Origin: Candidatus Saccharimonadota bacterium
Lineage (GTDB): Bacteria; Patescibacteriota; Saccharimonadia; Saccharimonadales; Saccharimonadaceae
Direction: 5' to 3'
Assembly: GCA_027492255.1 (NCBI GenBank)
Contig: JAPUFB010000003.1
Coordinates: 139,889-203,888 of the forward strand
Length of the DNA stretch: 64,000 nt
The notes under the pieces were generated by a model that saw only the letters and a list, made by a program, of their open reading frames with translations, did no database searches and was not told the DNA's origin. Made by a program: the position numbers and the translations under genes. Below, piece by piece: positions 13,018 through 60,898 of this stretch (its first letter is position 1; every line of letters starts with the position of its first letter).

Positions 13018-14229
13018 ATGGCAACGTTTAGTTATCAAGTAGTTGACCAAGATGGCAAAGCAAAAAAAGGAACGCTTGACGCAGTTAACCGCAATGAGGT
13101 TGTTGAGGTACTTACTCGTCAAGGTCTTCGTCCGCTCCAAATTAAACTTACGAGCGCAAACGGCCGTAAGAATGGTTTATTCAAGAAAAAAGTGAAACTA
13201 GTCGACATCGTTCTGTTTACACGCCAGCTCTCAACCATGGTCTCCGCTGGAGTCCCTCTTCTTCGCGCACTCAATACACTTCAAGCACAGGCTGAAAATA
13301 AAACAATGCAAGAAGTAATTGGCGTTATCGTCAAGGATGTTCAGGGCGGCTCTCAGCTTGCCGATGCGCTTGCAAAACATCCAGATGTTTTTAGTGACAT
13401 CTATGTCAACATGGTACGCGCTGGTGAAGCCGCAGGAATTGTAGACGATATCCTAAAACGTCTTGCATCACAAGTGGAAAAATCAGCAAGTATCCGTAAA
13501 AAAGTAAAAGGTGCCTCAACGTATCCACTCGTACTGTTAAGTCTCACGGTTGTTGCTTTCTTTGGGCTTATGATTTTTGTTATCCCAAATATCGGCCATA
13601 TTATTAAAGGTATCAACCCGGACGGCGAACTTCCTGCCCTAACTCAAGCAATGCTCGGGATTAGTAGCTTTATGGTCTCATACTGGTACATTGTTGCGGG
13701 TATTATTATTAGTGGCATTATTCTCTTTAAGCGCTACCAAGCTACGAAGGCTGGTCGACTTAACATCGATAGGTTAATTTTGAGACTGCCGGTTGCGGGG
13801 ATGCTCGTGACAAAAATTGCCGTAGCAAGTTTCACGCGTACATTTTCCGCACTTATCGGGGCAGGCGTGAGTGTCGTCGAAGCACTCAACGTTACCTCAC
13901 GGTCTCTTGGTAATGAAGTATTTCGTCTTGAGATTGAAAAAGCTGCCAAAGCAGTAGTAAATGGTAAATTGCTTTCTCAATCATTAGAAGGCAGTACCTT
14001 CTTTCCTGCGATTGTCCCGCAGATGCTTGCTGTCGGTGAGGAAACTGGTCAGACAGATACGGTACTCGTTAAAGTTGCCGAGTTTTACGAAGAAGAGGTA
14101 GATACTGCCATTGACAGCCTTAGTTCTTTACTCGAACCAATCATGATCGTCGTACTAGGAGCTGGTGTCGGCTTGATCGCGGCGAGCGTCATGGGTCCAA
14201 TCGCCAGCATGTCACAAAACGTGCAATAG
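13018..14229 (+). CDS. pilC: Type IV pilus inner membrane platform protein PilC
   Basis: A 403-residue protein with two T2SSF repeats. An N-terminal ATF(S)YQVVDQDGKAKKGTLDA segment is followed by FTRQLSTMVSAGVPLLRAL (repeat 1) and ASFTRTFSALIGAGVSVVEAL (repeat 2), and three membrane segments (about 172-195, 222-243, 375-395). It couples PilB motion to pilin assembly. A good Shine-Dalgarno, AAAGAGGTGG, precedes the ATG. Its length matches the family. Confidence 0.96.
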   Translation: MATFSYQVVDQDGKAKKGTLDAVNRNEVVEVLTRQGLRPLQIKLTSANGRKNGLFKKKVKLVDIVLFTRQLSTMVSAGVPLLRALNTLQAQAENKTMQEVIGVIVKDVQGGSQLADALAKHPDVFSDIYVNMVRAGEAAGIVDDILKRLASQVEKSASIRKKVKGASTYPLVLLSLTVVAFFGLMIFVIPNIGHIIKGINPDGELPALTQAMLGISSFMVSYWYIVAGIIISGIILFKRYQATKAGRLNIDRLILRLPVAGMLVTKIAVASFTRTFSALIGAGVSVVEALNVTSRSLGNEVFRLEIEKAAKAVVNGKLLSQSLEGSTFFPAIVPQMLAVGEETGQTDTVLVKVAEFYEEEVDTAIDSLSSLLEPIMIVVLGAGVGLIAASVMGPIASMSQNVQ

Positions 14230-14232
14230 GCA

Positions 14233-14260
14233 TTGACTCTATACAGCTTATGGTTATAAT
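14233..14260 (+). promoter_or_regulatory. Promoter of the major pilin
   Basis: TTGACT (14233-14238) and TATAAT (14255-14260) are 16 bp apart. The leader of about 75 nt ends in AAGGAGGGTGG (from 14328), the strongest Shine-Dalgarno seen in the window, fitting high pilin expression. Confidence 0.75.
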
Positions 14261-14341
14261 TACAATCAGATACTTTTTATCTCGCCTACGCGCGGTAAAG
14301 TATAACAATTAACAATTTAACATCCTTAAGGAGGGTGGGAA

Positions 14342-14863
14342 ATGATCTCACTTAAGAATAAAGAATCAGGGTTCACAATCGTGGAGCTCTTGATTGTTAT
14401 CGTGATTATCGGTATCCTCGCGGGTCTCGTTATCACACAGTTCCTAGGCGCAAACCAACAGGCACGCGACTCCGAGCGCAAAACTGACCTTAATAGCTTG
14501 GCAAGCCAGCTCGAAGTTTACTTCGCAAAAAGCGCAGGCTATCCAACACTCACTAATGTCAATACGGCTGCATGGCGAACTGGTAACCAGTTTAATGCTG
14601 GTGATAACGGCAAAGCACTTGCAGACCCTGTAAGTGCAAGCTCGGCCGCGCTTGTAGCTGCAGTGGCTCCTAACGAATATTCATATGTTCCTACCCCAGC
14701 CGGCTGTACCGCTATGACAGACGACTCGGGTGCAACTATTTCAAGCACAACACCATGCACAGGCTTCACTCTTACGGCTGTTCTTGAGAACACTAAAGAC
14801 AAGTCAGCAACCATAGTTGGAACACAAGCTCAATACGTAAAGAAGGGTGCAAACGATCAGTAA
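14342..14863 (+). CDS. Type IV major pilin-like protein
   Basis: A 173-residue prepilin. The short basic leader ends in ESG and is cut before FTIVELLIVIVIIGILAGL; the mature protein has Phe1 and Glu5, as in classical type IV pilins. The globular part carries two Cys (in AGCTAM and TPCTGF) that could form the C-terminal disulfide loop. Its own promoter, strong ribosome-binding site and terminator, together with its position after pilC, make it the likely major subunit. Confidence 0.9.
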   Translation: MISLKNKESGFTIVELLIVIVIIGILAGLVITQFLGANQQARDSERKTDLNSLASQLEVYFAKSAGYPTLTNVNTAAWRTGNQFNAGDNGKALADPVSASSAALVAAVAPNEYSYVPTPAGCTAMTDDSGATISSTTPCTGFTLTAVLENTKDKSATIVGTQAQYVKKGANDQ

Positions 14864-14876
14864 TTGATCAACCTTC

Positions 14877-14912
14877 TATATAAAATCGCCCCATATGGGG
14901 CGATTTTATATA
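14877..14912. terminator. Terminator after the major pilin
   Basis: A perfect 18-bp palindrome with GC-rich centre (CGCCCCATATGGGGCG) and A/T flanks, right after the pilin stop; symmetrical, so usable in both directions. The following 170 bp to 15083 hold no gene that I can see. Confidence 0.88.
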
Positions 14913-15082
14913 CTACAATAATTCCAATATTCTAGCTTTTAACCACCATCAGCCTGTAGTGACTATAATCCCCCAGTTTACGGCTTACTAAGCATAGGAT
15001 ACTAGAAAGATGATGCATAGATGATTCACTCTCACTAAGTCGCCAAGTTTCGCGTATACCCCAGGATAACACCATTTAAGCA

Positions 15083-16603
15083 TTAAGGATTAGCAACAAC
15101 TTCTCGCCAAGAAAGAATATCGTATGTACTCGTAACAGGAAAACTCGGTGGTGGTAGGTATCTCAAATTCTCATCATAATTAGTTGACGTGTACCGATAC
15201 CCAGCCCAACAGCCTGCGTTCATAACTGTACCGCACAGCTGGACAGACCATGTCCACTCAAGATTTGAAGCTAGTGAACCAAAGTATACAAGGCCTTGTG
15301 TCGAAAGTGCATATCCTTTTACATAAGTGCTAGTGCCCTTATAGGTCCGACGAATACCAACGCTGCCAGATTTGGCGATAAGCGCGGCATCAACTTCAAC
15401 ATTTGATCCAACATACGGCGCAACTTCGACACTATCCTCAGTAACAAGCCCGATAGTATCCTTACCGCTGTATTTTTCAGTATATAGTAAATTCCCGGCG
15501 ATAATAATATCTGTGTCACCAGGCGCAGCTAATCGAGCAGAAGCAATAGTCACTCGACCATCATATCCACCAGTATTGGAGCGGACCCATACATTATCTT
15601 CAACAAATATAACTCCTGTCGCAGGAACGGCGATATTGTTCGCGACAACCGTACGGGTCAGCGCTGTAGCATAGGTAGTATTGGTATCTTTTTCGTTCGT
15701 CACCTTCTCAAGATTGTATGTATTATCACTATTAAGCGTAATAAGGTATCCCATAGTTGAAGAATATGACGTTGTCGATGTTGGAGGAATATACCCCGCC
15801 GTTCGTGCTGGCATGAGGTTACATGCATTTGACGCTTGGTTCGCTGTTGCAATTTTCTTCATCTGGCAAAGATCAGCCCCAAGTTTATTGAAATCAACAG
15901 CCGGCACCGGGTACGCCCAGCTAGTTTTTAAGCGAGTCGCACACGAAACTGGAGTTGTTATAGCTGAATCGCACCACACGCCAGCTTTTGTCGTATTCGC
16001 ACCAGTACCACTCCAGCTTGGAACAAGGTATGTCGACTGAGCACTTGTAATTTGATCTGTATTGGCACCATCCATCTTTATTCCAACATTTGAATGAATC
16101 GGGCCACTTGTACTCTCAGTGTTTCCAAACCATAAGGCCGTATTACCAGCAACAGCATACGTACTAAATGAAGGGGCTCCAATGGTCACCTCAACACTTC
16201 TGGTAATATCACTTTTCACACCTTTTACAATACCTATGGAGCGGACTGTGACTGTTGTTGCCCCGAGCGCCCCTGGCTTCACCCAGAGCGTAAACTTCCC
16301 TTGTTTATCACCATGAGAATCGTAGTAGTCGTGAGTATAGGGCCCGTACCCCAATGCCTGTTGTGTTGCCGGTGTTGAATTTCCATCCTTAACATCCGCA
16401 TTATTATGATTCATATGCCATAGATAATAATTAGCGCCTGCCTCTGCAATATTAAGTGCCATCTCACTCTCGTGTGTTCTGAGTGTCGACTGAAGTAAGG
16501 TTACTATCATCATACCAACCGCCGATGCTAGAATCGCAAAAGTTACGATAAATACGATAAGGCCCGGTAATAATGATCCTTTTTCTCTCGTATGTAGTCT
16601 CAT
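15083..16603 (-). CDS. Large PilX-like pilus-associated protein
   Basis: A 506-residue protein. The N-terminus has a basic start, EKGSLLPGLIVFIVTFAIL as an atypical pilin-like membrane helix, and the PilX-type segment SEMALNIAEAGANYYLWHM. The rest is beta-rich, with repeated DGRVTIA-, DTDIIIAGNLLY- and VDAALIAKSG-like strands resembling a beta-solenoid. Such proteins are surface-exposed minor pilus components. It overlaps the next upstream gene by 4 bases and forms a three-gene cassette that runs against the pilB-C-M-N-O direction. Confidence 0.7.
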   Translation of the reverse strand: MRLHTREKGSLLPGLIVFIVTFAILASAVGMMIVTLLQSTLRTHESEMALNIAEAGANYYLWHMNHNNADVKDGNSTPATQQALGYGPYTHDYYDSHGDKQGKFTLWVKPGALGATTVTVRSIGIVKGVKSDITRSVEVTIGAPSFSTYAVAGNTALWFGNTESTSGPIHSNVGIKMDGANTDQITSAQSTYLVPSWSGTGANTTKAGVWCDSAITTPVSCATRLKTSWAYPVPAVDFNKLGADLCQMKKIATANQASNACNLMPARTAGYIPPTSTTSYSSTMGYLITLNSDNTYNLEKVTNEKDTNTTYATALTRTVVANNIAVPATGVIFVEDNVWVRSNTGGYDGRVTIASARLAAPGDTDIIIAGNLLYTEKYSGKDTIGLVTEDSVEVAPYVGSNVEVDAALIAKSGSVGIRRTYKGTSTYVKGYALSTQGLVYFGSLASNLEWTWSVQLCGTVMNAGCWAGYRYTSTNYDENLRYLPPPSFPVTSTYDILSWREVVANP

Positions 16604-17205
16604 AAGTTCGTCTTTCTATTTCGCATTAAAACAGTCGTTTTATACTGTAGGTTCACAGAAGCTTTTTCAGCAGTACTCGAGAGATCTACTGTAATTGTCT
16701 TGATGTCTTTATAGGTTGTTGCATCAAACGGTCCACTGTTGCCGTCCGCATCATGATACGAAAATAGTGACGAAGTTGGCGTGAAGTTGCGTAGTAAAAC
16801 CGAGGTCTTTTTATTGGCAATAGGATACGTAAGATTCGGCACCGTCCCTACTGCCTGGATTCTTTCGACTTTAAGACTCTTTGTAGTTGTATCGACATAA
16901 TAGGTGACCTGCGAAAGATTTGAGTCTCCAGGGGAAAAGTAGGCATATACCGTCAGGCGCGTACCTGTTGCTTCGGTTATTGAGCGACCACTTCTTAGGA
17001 CTTGGGCAATTCGCGTCAATGCCTGCTGTCTGTCGACTGCGGTAATTGAAACATTTTGAATCTTTATCATCTGATTTGGAACCGAAACGACAAAAGCCAA
17101 AACTAACGCCGACATTATGCCAATAATAAACATCGTAACGAGTAGTTCCAGTGTCGTAAAACCTTGTTGTTTATGGGGTTGCATTGACACCCCCATTCTT
17201 GCCAC
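16600..17205 (-). CDS. Minor pilin-like protein (PilW/PulJ-type)
   Basis: A 201-residue prepilin-like protein: leader ending KQQG, cleavage before FTTLELLVTMFIIGIMSALVL, with Glu5 of the mature form present. The globular domain is beta-rich with no Cys. It overlaps both neighbours (35 bp with the upstream gene, 4 bp downstream), so the three are tightly coupled. By analogy with PilV-W-X-type minor pilins it may help start pili or carry the tip protein. Confidence 0.75.
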   Translation of the reverse strand: MARMGVSMQPHKQQGFTTLELLVTMFIIGIMSALVLAFVVSVPNQMIKIQNVSITAVDRQQALTRIAQVLRSGRSITEATGTRLTVYAYFSPGDSNLSQVTYYVDTTTKSLKVERIQAVGTVPNLTYPIANKKTSVLLRNFTPTSSLFSYHDADGNSGPFDATTYKDIKTITVDLSSTAEKASVNLQYKTTVLMRNRKTNL

Positions 17206-58583: not shown

Positions 58584-59843
58584 ATGCATATATATTTTTC
58601 GGGTATTGGCGGTGTCGGTATCGGCCCACTGGCTGAAATTGCCCGTGACGCCGGTTATGATGTGTCTGGCTCAGATCAGATTCAAAGTCTTATGACCGAT
58701 CAGCTCATACGCAAAGGTATCCGGGTTGCAATAGGACAAGATGGCTCGCAGATTATGCGCGAGCATTCAGCCAACCCAATCGACTGGTTCGTCTACACCG
58801 CAGCGCTGCCTCAGGATCACCCTGAGCTTGTCTTTGCTAAGCAAAACGGTATCAGAACCGCAAAACGCGACGAGCTATTAGCAGAAATTATCCGCGAGAA
58901 GAACCTGAAGCTCATCGCCGTTGCTGGCACTCATGGTAAAACGACAACGAGCGGACTATTAGTATGGGTCTTTAAACAGCTCGGTATCCCCGTGAGTTAT
59001 TCAGTCGGAACAACACTTGAGTTTGGGCCGAGCGGCCGCTATGACCCACAGAGTGAATACTTCATCTACGAATGTGATGAATACGACCGCAATTTTCTCC
59101 ATTTTCAGCCATATCTTTCCCTGATACCGGCCATTGATTATGATCATCCAGACACGTATCCAACACGTCGTAGTTATCAAGATGCTTTCGTGGAATTTCT
59201 CAGCCAATCAGACTACTCACTTCTTTGGGAAAAAGATATTCGAGCTCTTGAAACACCTGATATCTCGGCAAATTACGAAGCCTATGACGAATTAATGGAC
59301 CTCTCATCTATATCTTTACCTGGCGATCACCTGCGCCACAATGCCTATCTTGTAGAGAGGGCTCTAGAGCGGCTATTGGGAGAGTCGTTTGCAGCGTTTG
59401 ACGCTATTAATTCCTTCCCTGGCACAGGCAGACGATTCGAAAAACTTGCCAATAATCTCTACAGTGACTACGGTCATCATCCAGCTGAGATTGCCGCGAC
59501 ATTGCAGATGGCTCGTGAATTGTCCGATCACGTCGTGCTCGTCTATCAGCCGCACCAAAATATCCGCCAACATGAAGTGAAGAACCAATACACTGATTGT
59601 ATGCAGCTGGCGGAAACGGTTTACTGGCTTCCGACATATCTAAGCCGAGAAGATCCGAATCTTGAAGTTTTAACACCTGAACAGCTGTCTGAAAATCTCG
59701 TCAATAAAGAATCCGTTCACGTCTCCGATCTCAACGAATCGCTTTGGCATGAAATTCAGAGCCACTGCAACAATGGTCATCTCGTCCTCTGTATGGGTGC
59801 CGGAACAATTGATACCTGGCTCCGCTCGAAATTGACAAAATAG
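58584..59843 (+). CDS. murC: UDP-N-acetylmuramate--L-alanine ligase MurC
   Basis: A 419-residue Mur ligase: Rossmann-like start MHIYFSGIGGVGIGPLAEIA with SGSD, P-loop GTHGKTTTSG (115-124), IYECDEYDRNFL with metal-binding acidic and His pair, HLRHNAYL, and C-terminal DYGHHPAEI. It adds L-Ala to UDP-MurNAc, the first peptide step of wall synthesis. The ATG at 58584 lies 6 nt after TATACT (58572-58577); a longer frame from 58455 crosses the promoter. Mpl is an alternative, but the length and motifs fit MurC. Confidence 0.88.
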   Translation: MHIYFSGIGGVGIGPLAEIARDAGYDVSGSDQIQSLMTDQLIRKGIRVAIGQDGSQIMREHSANPIDWFVYTAALPQDHPELVFAKQNGIRTAKRDELLAEIIREKNLKLIAVAGTHGKTTTSGLLVWVFKQLGIPVSYSVGTTLEFGPSGRYDPQSEYFIYECDEYDRNFLHFQPYLSLIPAIDYDHPDTYPTRRSYQDAFVEFLSQSDYSLLWEKDIRALETPDISANYEAYDELMDLSSISLPGDHLRHNAYLVERALERLLGESFAAFDAINSFPGTGRRFEKLANNLYSDYGHHPAEIAATLQMARELSDHVVLVYQPHQNIRQHEVKNQYTDCMQLAETVYWLPTYLSREDPNLEVLTPEQLSENLVNKESVHVSDLNESLWHEIQSHCNNGHLVLCMGAGTIDTWLRSKLTK

Positions 59844-59860
59844 TCGTATTTTGCTATAAT
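59832..59860 (+). promoter_or_regulatory. Consensus promoter inside the murC 3' end
   Basis: TTGACA (59832-59837), 17-bp spacer, then TATAAT (59855-59860) preceded by TG (TTTGCTATAAT). This is a full consensus sigma-70-type promoter with an extended -10, the best in the window. The -35 box is read as codons of the last murC residues. Confidence 0.88.
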
Positions 59861-59873
59861 ATATCTATTCCGT

Positions 59874-59974
59874 AGAGAATATGTCTCCGGAGGTAATTTT
59901 ATAGTTCTCTGGTAGAGACACGTTTTGTTTGACGAAATGTTTGCGTATATCGCTAATATTTCGTCAAACAAAAC
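59874..59974 (+). ncRNA. Structured leader RNA before the nucleotidyltransferase gene
   Basis: AGAGAA (59874-59879) can pair with TTCTCT (59905-59910), and TGTCTC (59882-59887) with GAGACA (59915-59920). The order 1-2-1'-2' is that of a pseudoknot. It is followed by a perfect 17-bp stem, 59922-59938 with 59958-59974 (core TTTGACGAAAT/ATTTCGTCAAA), with a 19-nt loop. CCGGAGG lies inside the knot but no start codon follows. It could be a riboswitch-like leader, a processed small RNA, or a terminator and leader pair. Confidence 0.55.
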
Positions 59975-59994
59975 TCGACTCAGAAAGGCTTCAC

Positions 59995-60477
59995 ATGTTT
60001 TGGAGAGATCCTGAAGGTGTCTACACCTGGGCAAGAGTCCTCGCTGGAGATCTGATCAGTGTTGCTCCTGTCGAGAAGATTGAAGTGTTCGGCTCCATCT
60101 CGAGAGGTATGGCTCTCGGTTGCTCGGACATCGACATGATCGTCGTTGTCGATACTGCGTTGGCCAAGGAGTGGCTCGAGCGGTGTCAGTTCGGTTTCGC
60201 GGAAGATGAACTCTACACGAATCGAAGACGAGATCGTCTCGTCCATGCCGCAAGCGTTCTTGAAACCCCATGGCTTGGGGAAGGATGGGACGCAGCTCTG
60301 GACATCTTCCTCTTCCCGCCCGACTGGCGGAGTCGTCTTGTGGAGCTCCAGACAGCCGGCAACCATAGCGACCCCGACTTCATGCTCAACATTGCGCATG
60401 ATGCAACCGCGTTCGATCCTGTACTCCAGACGTTCCCGATGGTGGAGCAGTACCGAGCTCAGAGGATCGACGCCTGA
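59995..60477 (+). CDS. Minimal nucleotidyltransferase-fold protein, GC-rich
   Basis: A 160-residue protein with the pol-beta-type nucleotidyltransferase motif VFGSISRGMALGCSDIDMIV (GSxxRG...SDID) near residues 31-50; a possible third acidic residue lies in ALDIFLFP. The start at 59995 follows AGAAAGG; the frame upstream to 59929 crosses the hairpin. Codon choice and base composition are clearly richer in G+C than in the neighbours, which points to recent transfer. No HEPN-type partner lies beside it. It could be an MNT-type antitoxin relative or an antibiotic nucleotidyltransferase relative; the substrate is unknown. Confidence 0.72.
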   Translation: MFWRDPEGVYTWARVLAGDLISVAPVEKIEVFGSISRGMALGCSDIDMIVVVDTALAKEWLERCQFGFAEDELYTNRRRDRLVHAASVLETPWLGEGWDAALDIFLFPPDWRSRLVELQTAGNHSDPDFMLNIAHDATAFDPVLQTFPMVEQYRAQRIDA

Positions 60478-60493
60478 ACAGAGAACTACTACA

Positions 60494-60534
60494 CCGAGAG
60501 GCGGAGTGCGGCTACCAAGCCCCTCCGCCCTCGG
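60494..60534. terminator. GC-rich hairpin after the nucleotidyltransferase
   Basis: CCGAGAGGCGGAG pairs with CTCCGCCCTCGG (one bulge) around a 16-nt loop. There is no T run. It marks the end of the GC-rich segment. Confidence 0.6.
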
Positions 60535-60571
60535 CGGTTCCCAAAGTTGATAAAGATTTTATCTGTTTTGG

Positions 60572-60898
60572 TTACCGGTAATCACCCGTACTTGCAATCG
60601 CTCCGCGCTCTTTTCGATCGGAAAGTTTTTCGAGATTAGTAGTCACAACATCATCAAGCTCAAGTCCAAGCTCACGGCTAAGAGTGGCAATATACCAAAG
60701 TACGTCGCCAAGTTCACGCTTCAGGTCATCCCGATCTAGTTTTGAGAAGTCCGAGTTGTGATTCCGAATGGCCTTCTTTATCTTCTCTGCAACTTCACCG
60801 GCCTCACCGACAAGCCCTAACGCAAGATATGGAATTTTCATCTCTCCCTCAACAATAAATGTTGCAGCAGCTTTTAGTTGGTACTCATTGCACGTCAT
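60572..60898 (-). CDS. MazG-like nucleotide pyrophosphohydrolase
   Basis: A 108-residue all-alpha protein with LGLVGEAGEVAEKIKKAI (ExxE) and KRELGDVLWYIATL (ExxD), the two metal-binding motifs of MazG/NTP-PPase folds. These enzymes remove pyrophosphate from NTPs or from non-canonical nucleotides. It overlaps trmB by 4 bases. Confidence 0.88.
   Translation of the reverse strand: MTCNEYQLKAAATFIVEGEMKIPYLALGLVGEAGEVAEKIKKAIRNHNSDFSKLDRDDLKRELGDVLWYIATLSRELGLELDDVVTTNLEKLSDRKERGAIASTGDYR

Follow-up and report, generated by a model that had tools for sequence, protein, structure and literature searches.

An insertion next to murC as a member of a proposed family of RNA-framed gene cassettes in tiny host-dependent bacteria

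The inserted segment between murC and mazG/trmB

The window, by which we mean the whole stretch of 64,000 nt that was analyzed, belongs to a small CPR-type genome of 854,584 bases in six contigs (G000), probably of the class Saccharimonadia, and all genome-wide statistics for it were computed over the six contigs. Inspection of the murC locus reveals about 730 bp inserted between murC and mazG/trmB, comprising a promoter, a structured leader, a gene, and a 3' hairpin. Both other genomes of the same genus lack the insertion, with murC followed directly by a convergent trmB, and in several more distant genomes a convergent mazG lies directly after murC; the genomes compared are probably mostly metagenome assemblies. 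The preliminary description of this DNA had proposed one transferred, self-contained module, a view supported by the empty murC site in the two same-genus genomes and several others, and by the recurrence of the frame as a unit in 19 genomes. The features of the segment, in window positions, are as follows.

59832..59860, plus strand: promoter TTGACA-N17-TATAAT, read from the sequence (TTGACA 59832-59837, TATAAT 59855-59860)
59868..59892, plus strand: P1, 5' hairpin UUCCG-UA-GAGA-AUAUG-UCUC-CGGAG, predicted to fold alone (-7.5 kcal/mol)
59893..59901, plus strand: linker GUAAUUUUA, conserved and single-stranded by alignment A5 and model R3; family form ACnUUnACAAG, running into P3a
59902..59911, plus strand: P3a UAGUUCUCUG, 5' strand of a helix spanning the ORF; 10-nt perfect complement to 60479-60488, in the same place in 42 copies
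59922..59974, plus strand: P2, long hairpin before the ribosome-binding site (-29.2 kcal/mol)
59980..59988, plus strand: likely ribosome-binding site TCAGAAAGG, judged from sequence, 6 nt upstream of the ATG
59995..60477, plus strand: cargo ORF, a 160-aa small nucleotidyltransferase (Pfam NTP_transf_2)
60479..60488, plus strand: P3b CAGAGAACUA, perfect complement of P3a, with which it pairs; abuts the stop codon
60494..60534, plus strand: P4, GC-rich 3' hairpin (-29.3 kcal/mol), without a U-run

The promoter is the perfect one that had been reported within the murC end, and its -35 box coincides in part with the region of the murC stop codon. The further claim that nothing else in the window has such a promoter is correct, this being the sole exact match there; in the genome it is one of 10 exact TTGACA-N16..18-TATAAT sites (against 0 in a reversed control); one exact promoter per 64 kb is therefore ordinary. 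P1 begins at most about 8 nt from the predicted transcription start. The perfect 17-bp leader hairpin described earlier is P2, which reaches 20 bp with one G-U pair, the GC-rich hairpin noted after the gene is P4, and the leader as a whole folds with a z-score of -5.6. The P3 helix of the window copy is short (10 bp), a length equaled by 12 of 20,000 shuffles of the tail. A proposed H-type pseudoknot was not supported: the crossing stems are present, but 1.35% of shuffles of this post-hoc-chosen stretch equal their score and the family conserves something else, so that the shuffle test and the family alignment led us to reject it as a conserved feature. The UUCUCU formerly taken as its second half belongs to the pairing with sequence 3' of the stop codon. 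Within the 5' part of the window copy, nested and crossing folds do compete, and no tandem RNA repeats were detected in the leader with Tandem Repeats Finder.

Perfect hairpins with arms of at least 17 number 11 in G000, and most of those other than P2 have an A-rich 5' arm and a T-rich 3' arm in a terminator-like arrangement, the reverse of P2. Long perfect stems of this A-rich/T-rich kind, with arms of 15-20 bp, are frequent in the genome (for example, C6:23448-23490 and C3:131932-131982) and look like an unusual long-stem type of terminator.

The cargo protein scores 24.2 bits against NTP_transf_2 (PF01909; cut-off 21) and carries the GS and DxD motifs, with GS 33-34, D45, D47, and D103 invariant in alignment A1; judged from these retained catalytic residues, the enzyme looks catalytically intact. 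The GS...DxD...D motif and the predicted secondary structure are common to it and the small nucleotidyltransferases of the NTP_transf_2/MNT type, whereas it falls far below the curated cut-offs of the MntA antitoxins and the ANT(4') resistance enzymes. Its MntA (type VII antitoxin) score is 13.6 bits against a cut-off of 60, which places it outside that family, and no MntA-type partner gene lies inside the inserted segment; nor does the protein have a ToxN-type Pfam match. A check of base composition bore out the higher G+C claimed for the gene (56.1% against 45.9 +/- 4.1% for the ORFs of the genome), and its GC3 is 62%, compared with 43 +/- 8% for the genome ORFs; among ORFs of comparable length, 3-4% are richer still. 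Searches of 61 relatives, of phages and plasmids, and of viral contigs turned up no close relative of the gene, and an alignment-based scan of the viral contigs likewise returned no relative. The sole genome-contig match of the protein, at L006, was set aside as a coiled-coil chance match, and a fold search with a weak AlphaFold model (pLDDT 67) gave no significant match. The same class contains three full-length homologues, about 27% identical to it, all with other, short leaders in which model R3 finds no frame. Among the nucleotidyltransferase homologues at L050, L052, and L053, those at L050 and L052 each possess a promoter of their own as well as a GC-rich hairpin downstream of the stop codon, again with no frame.

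A family of copies built on the same frame

Searching other genomes with covariance models yielded homologous leaders, the opposite of the outcome that the preliminary description had named as refuting its idea. A model from the single window leader (R1) matched genome G226 (E = 7e-9), where the leader precedes a quite different gene of 213 aa; a two-sequence model (R2) revealed further clear copies in about 10 of the 373 genomes from the class that were searched; and a third model (R3) was built from the -10 box, P1, and linker only of 17 copies, with the window copy as one of the 17 rows. R3 scores true copies at 34-67 bits and background at 24 bits or less, leaving a small grey zone between, and gives the window copy, from which the family was reached via R1, 52.4 bits as compared with 19.4 for the next match in its genome. 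With R3, copies were found in 17 of the 49 genomes of G226's family and in none of about 50 genomes of other classes. Parsing by custom scripts, in which the cargo start codons are guesses, gave a total of 57 copies in 19 genomes, all from the same class, ranging from a single copy in G000 to at least 16 in G226, where several stand in same-strand arrays. The leader does not always precede the nucleotidyltransferase gene: many unrelated genes follow it.

Several candidates were discarded in the course of these searches. The weak R2 matches L131, L133, L164, L166, L168, and others were dropped since R3 places them in the background, and a pattern scan of viral contigs with CTCCGAAGNACNTTNACA returned 30 exact matches that we attribute to chance because R2 backs none of them. 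The leader DNA had no match in phages or plasmids, the 4,227 covariance models of Rfam returned only tRNA, hammerhead, and sub-threshold chance matches for the leader and frame, with no riboswitch, and the Rfam models of group I and group II introns gave no match in the cassette loci. In the literature we found nothing on hammerheads in these bacteria and nothing describing such a frame, and a family of portable RNA-framed gene units in tiny host-dependent bacteria appears to be undescribed.

The frame runs in the order promoter, P1, linker ACnUUnACAAG, P3a, P2, ribosome-binding site, cargo ORF or ORFs, P4, and P3b. Two arrangements of its 3' part occur: in type a, to which the window copy, G226 C1:241350, and others belong, P3b adjoins the stop codon and P4 lies beyond it, while type b has P4 ahead of P3b, which forms the end of the unit. 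A -10 box matching at least four of six positions lies directly before P1 in all 57 copies (at least five of six in 47), and a -35 box of at least four of six is present in 23 of the 57, spaced by 17 nt in 20 of these 23.

P1 and the linker form the most conserved part. Across the family, P1 has the form ACUUCG-UU-GAG...CUC-CGAAGU and starts a few bases from the expected transcription start; over 45 copies, 90.6% of its cells are paired in an alignment fitted to the model (82.4% in an unfitted alignment of 17), whereas slid partners reach at most 63%. Changes on both sides of a P1 pair number 27 against 12.4 in shuffles, and the changes are of the RNA type, with many U-G pairs. Between the window and the G226 copy, P2 keeps 20 of 20 main-stem pairs, several of them via changes on both sides, and a P2-like hairpin scoring at least 20 is present in 42 of the 57 copies. 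Counts of A-C mismatches and G-U pairs are 38 and 54 in P2 and 9 and 4 in P3; since A-C is nearly as common as G-U in P2, this ratio does not prove an RNA-level role for that helix.

The ORF-spanning helix P3 was detected without any 3' sequence in the models. It scores at least 22 in 33 of 57 copies as compared with 1 of 57 in a reversed-tail control. Covariation in P3 is strong. In 42 copies, P3a pairs at 98% with its own tail and at a mean of 61% (maximum, 71%; 1,000 permutations) with the tails of other copies, although the own-tail value is partly so by construction, because the tail was chosen for pairing, and the reversed-tail control is the cleaner test. By its P1, linker, P2, P3, and P4, the window copy is on sequence grounds a member of this family, though divergent in P1 register, being one column out relative to most other copies, and without a hammerhead.

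Hammerhead ribozymes, cargo turnover, and known systems

Many sister copies end in type III hammerheads (RF00008), and 17 distinct complete ones were identified by a rule that requires the core together with stems I, II, and III. Their core CUGANGA...GAAA and three stems, with stem III open, agree with type III hammerheads, and cleavage is predicted, the cut falling 7-11 nt after the end of P3b in 13 copies. Rfam scores two sister cassettes at 42.2 and 45.0 bits (E = 3.9e-7 and 9.2e-7), slightly short of its gathering threshold of 48.5. The P3 figures and the hammerhead counts derive from custom rules applied to copies that had been detected with models whose training covered only the 5' part. 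In the window copy, neither an Rfam search of 59700-60700 that allowed E values up to 10 nor the core rule detects a hammerhead; in it and in the other copies of this kind, a hairpin or an undefined stretch stands in the hammerhead's place. At L161, L287, and L212:17920, all without a hammerhead, the sequence after P3b forms a hairpin whose closing strands are CUUAACC/GGUUAAG or similar and whose inner part varies; this hairpin may be another 3' end-forming element. A hammerhead-like element with a very long stem II insertion follows P3b at L157:2218 (G155), and this large domain could be a regulatory insert.

The cargo ORFs are nearly all mutually unrelated and share no pathway. The 55 that have a ribosome-binding site average 59.5% GC and 77% GC3; the overall GC content of G226 is 53.6% (0.8 Mb examined). 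A Pfam search of 21 cargoes gave few matches (the window nucleotidyltransferase, an ion channel, and a DUF2807 protein), and PHROGs gave almost none. Two of the few cargoes with a known domain, at L228:18002 and L274:13312 in G226, are a two-helix ion channel (PF07885) and the DUF2807 protein. Copies within one genome are alike only over about 90 nt at the 5' end and about 125 nt at the 3' end (for example, 77% and 92% identity) and have unrelated middles, the pattern expected from cargo exchange within a kept frame; near-identical copies at different places were not found. Same-strand tandem arrays lie at L212:14687-19284 (G226 contig 1, minus strand), L275:2397-4341, and L273:1432-2266 and 13323-16985, and each of their units has its own promoter and hairpins and a different cargo, reminiscent of integron arrays. 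In a sister species of the window organism, a different cassette occupies the rnhB-rplS interval (L160, G002 contig 26), where G000 has other sequence, so that cassette sites vary within a genus.

Comparison with known systems brings out both likenesses and differences. Hammerheads flanking varying genes have been reported in bacterial prophages and were proposed to cut transcripts into gene-length RNAs (PMC3088659); that report concerns hammerheads only, whereas here the hammerhead is an optional part of a conserved frame, absent from the window copy, and the cassettes adjoin core genes with no evident prophage. Integron gene cassettes resemble the present units in their tandem arrays of small unrelated genes within a repeated frame and in their cargo turnover, yet the integron cassette is a promoterless ORF, and each unit here has its own promoter (the -10 box present throughout the family), a structured 5' leader, and a common part at both gene ends. 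Type III toxin-antitoxin loci (ToxIN) likewise combine, under a single promoter, a structured RNA and a hairpin with a gene downstream of them but differ by the tandem RNA repeats and ToxN family member that are missing here, and by the freely varying cargo. Obelisks, viroid-like RNAs of about 1 kb for which type III hammerheads are mentioned (PMC11922315), are of similar size and also combine an ORF with such ribozymes; the units described here are DNA-encoded, with sigma-70-type promoters.

Readings of the frame

Given the structures, covariation, hammerhead cores, recurrence, and variable cargo that can be read from these genomes, our working proposal, which we hold with evenly balanced confidence, is that the window segment is one copy of an RNA-framed cassette family that gives accessory mRNAs closed and precisely set ends. 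A strong promoter would start the RNA just upstream of P1, and the P1 hairpin would guard the 5' end of the mRNA. P3 would tie the two mRNA ends together across the coding region, with P2 standing between P3a and the ribosome-binding site, and hammerhead self-cleavage or a hairpin would set the 3' end. With its ends closed and set in this way, any framed accessory gene could plausibly become a stable, insulated message, independent of its neighbors, and recombination between the conserved frame ends may replace the cargo inside the kept frame.

Features of the frame also bear on other readings. In one, akin to the signal-sensing RNA that the preliminary description had raised, P1 and the linker would be a sensor for a ligand, protein, or temperature, and a P3/P2 switch would open or close translation of the accessory gene. 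In its favor, P1 and the linker are the most conserved part, P2 lies directly before the ribosome-binding site, and competing nested and crossing folds occur in the 5' part of the window copy. A responsive leader of this sort is nevertheless unlikely, though it deserves serious attention, as the cargo genes lack a common pathway, a leader switch would need neither an ORF-spanning P3 nor a downstream hammerhead, and no Rfam riboswitch matched. The patchy distribution, the tandem arrays, the unrelated cargo, and the insertion at murC would also suit a non-autonomous mobile element, in which P3 represents terminal inverted repeats, P2 and P4 are subterminal hairpins that a recombinase or transposase encoded at another site reads as DNA, and the cassettes move as DNA. 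Such a DNA-level reading is kept alive by the weak excess of G-U over A-C in P2 (54 against 38), but we regard it as rather improbable: the promoter and P1 lie outside P3 and are still conserved and inserted with it, P4 lies outside P3b in type-a copies, the changes in P1 and its many U-G pairs are RNA-like, hammerheads work only as RNA and keep a fixed distance from P3b, and near-identical copies have not turned up at different places. What leads us to favor a function at the RNA level is the constant spacing of the hammerheads, together with the conservation of the promoter and P1 beyond the limits of P3.

The preliminary description had further suggested that the RNA might be the partner of the nucleotidyltransferase; such a pair could, for example, be akin to a type III toxin-antitoxin. 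The order of promoter, structured RNA, hairpin, and gene does resemble such loci, and the enzyme's apparently intact catalytic residues would fit; against this, the same RNA precedes many other, unrelated genes, none of the enzyme's three full-length homologues carries the leader, and neither tandem RNA repeats nor a ToxN-type Pfam match was found, so that the idea of a dedicated pair retains hardly any probability. Equally far-fetched is the view that this is just a gene gained by horizontal transfer, with a strong promoter and leader structures that arose by chance; these genomes do contain GC-rich genes that have promoters of their own, and in this one neither perfect promoters nor long hairpins are rare, yet the comparison of 57 copies, in which three helices covary and hammerheads often sit at a fixed place, refutes it. 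A bolder extension, on which we would place little weight, is that the hammerhead-trimmed, panhandle-closed discrete RNAs are RNA agents with swappable coding cargo, which might be circularized, spread via an RNA intermediate, or be handed on to the GC-rich bacterial host on which these epibionts live and be translated there, this last idea being tied to the mean cargo GC3 of 77%. If this were true, the cassettes would be a DNA-encoded counterpart of obelisk-like RNAs.

Structured RNA halves that bracket unrelated genes, joined by a helix across the coding region and often accompanied by a ribozyme at fixed distance, are not among the RNA families tested. On our preferred reading of framed accessory mRNAs, the family would offer poorly known, host-dependent bacteria a general route to acquire and express accessory genes, would explain part of their GC-rich orphan genes, and would link bacterial hammerhead ribozymes to a repeated and testable architecture.

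As a separate observation on the window genome, contig 4 of G000 contains, at about 118165-124692, a run of GC-rich genes (55-64% GC, in a genome of 46% GC) that is possibly an acquired island.
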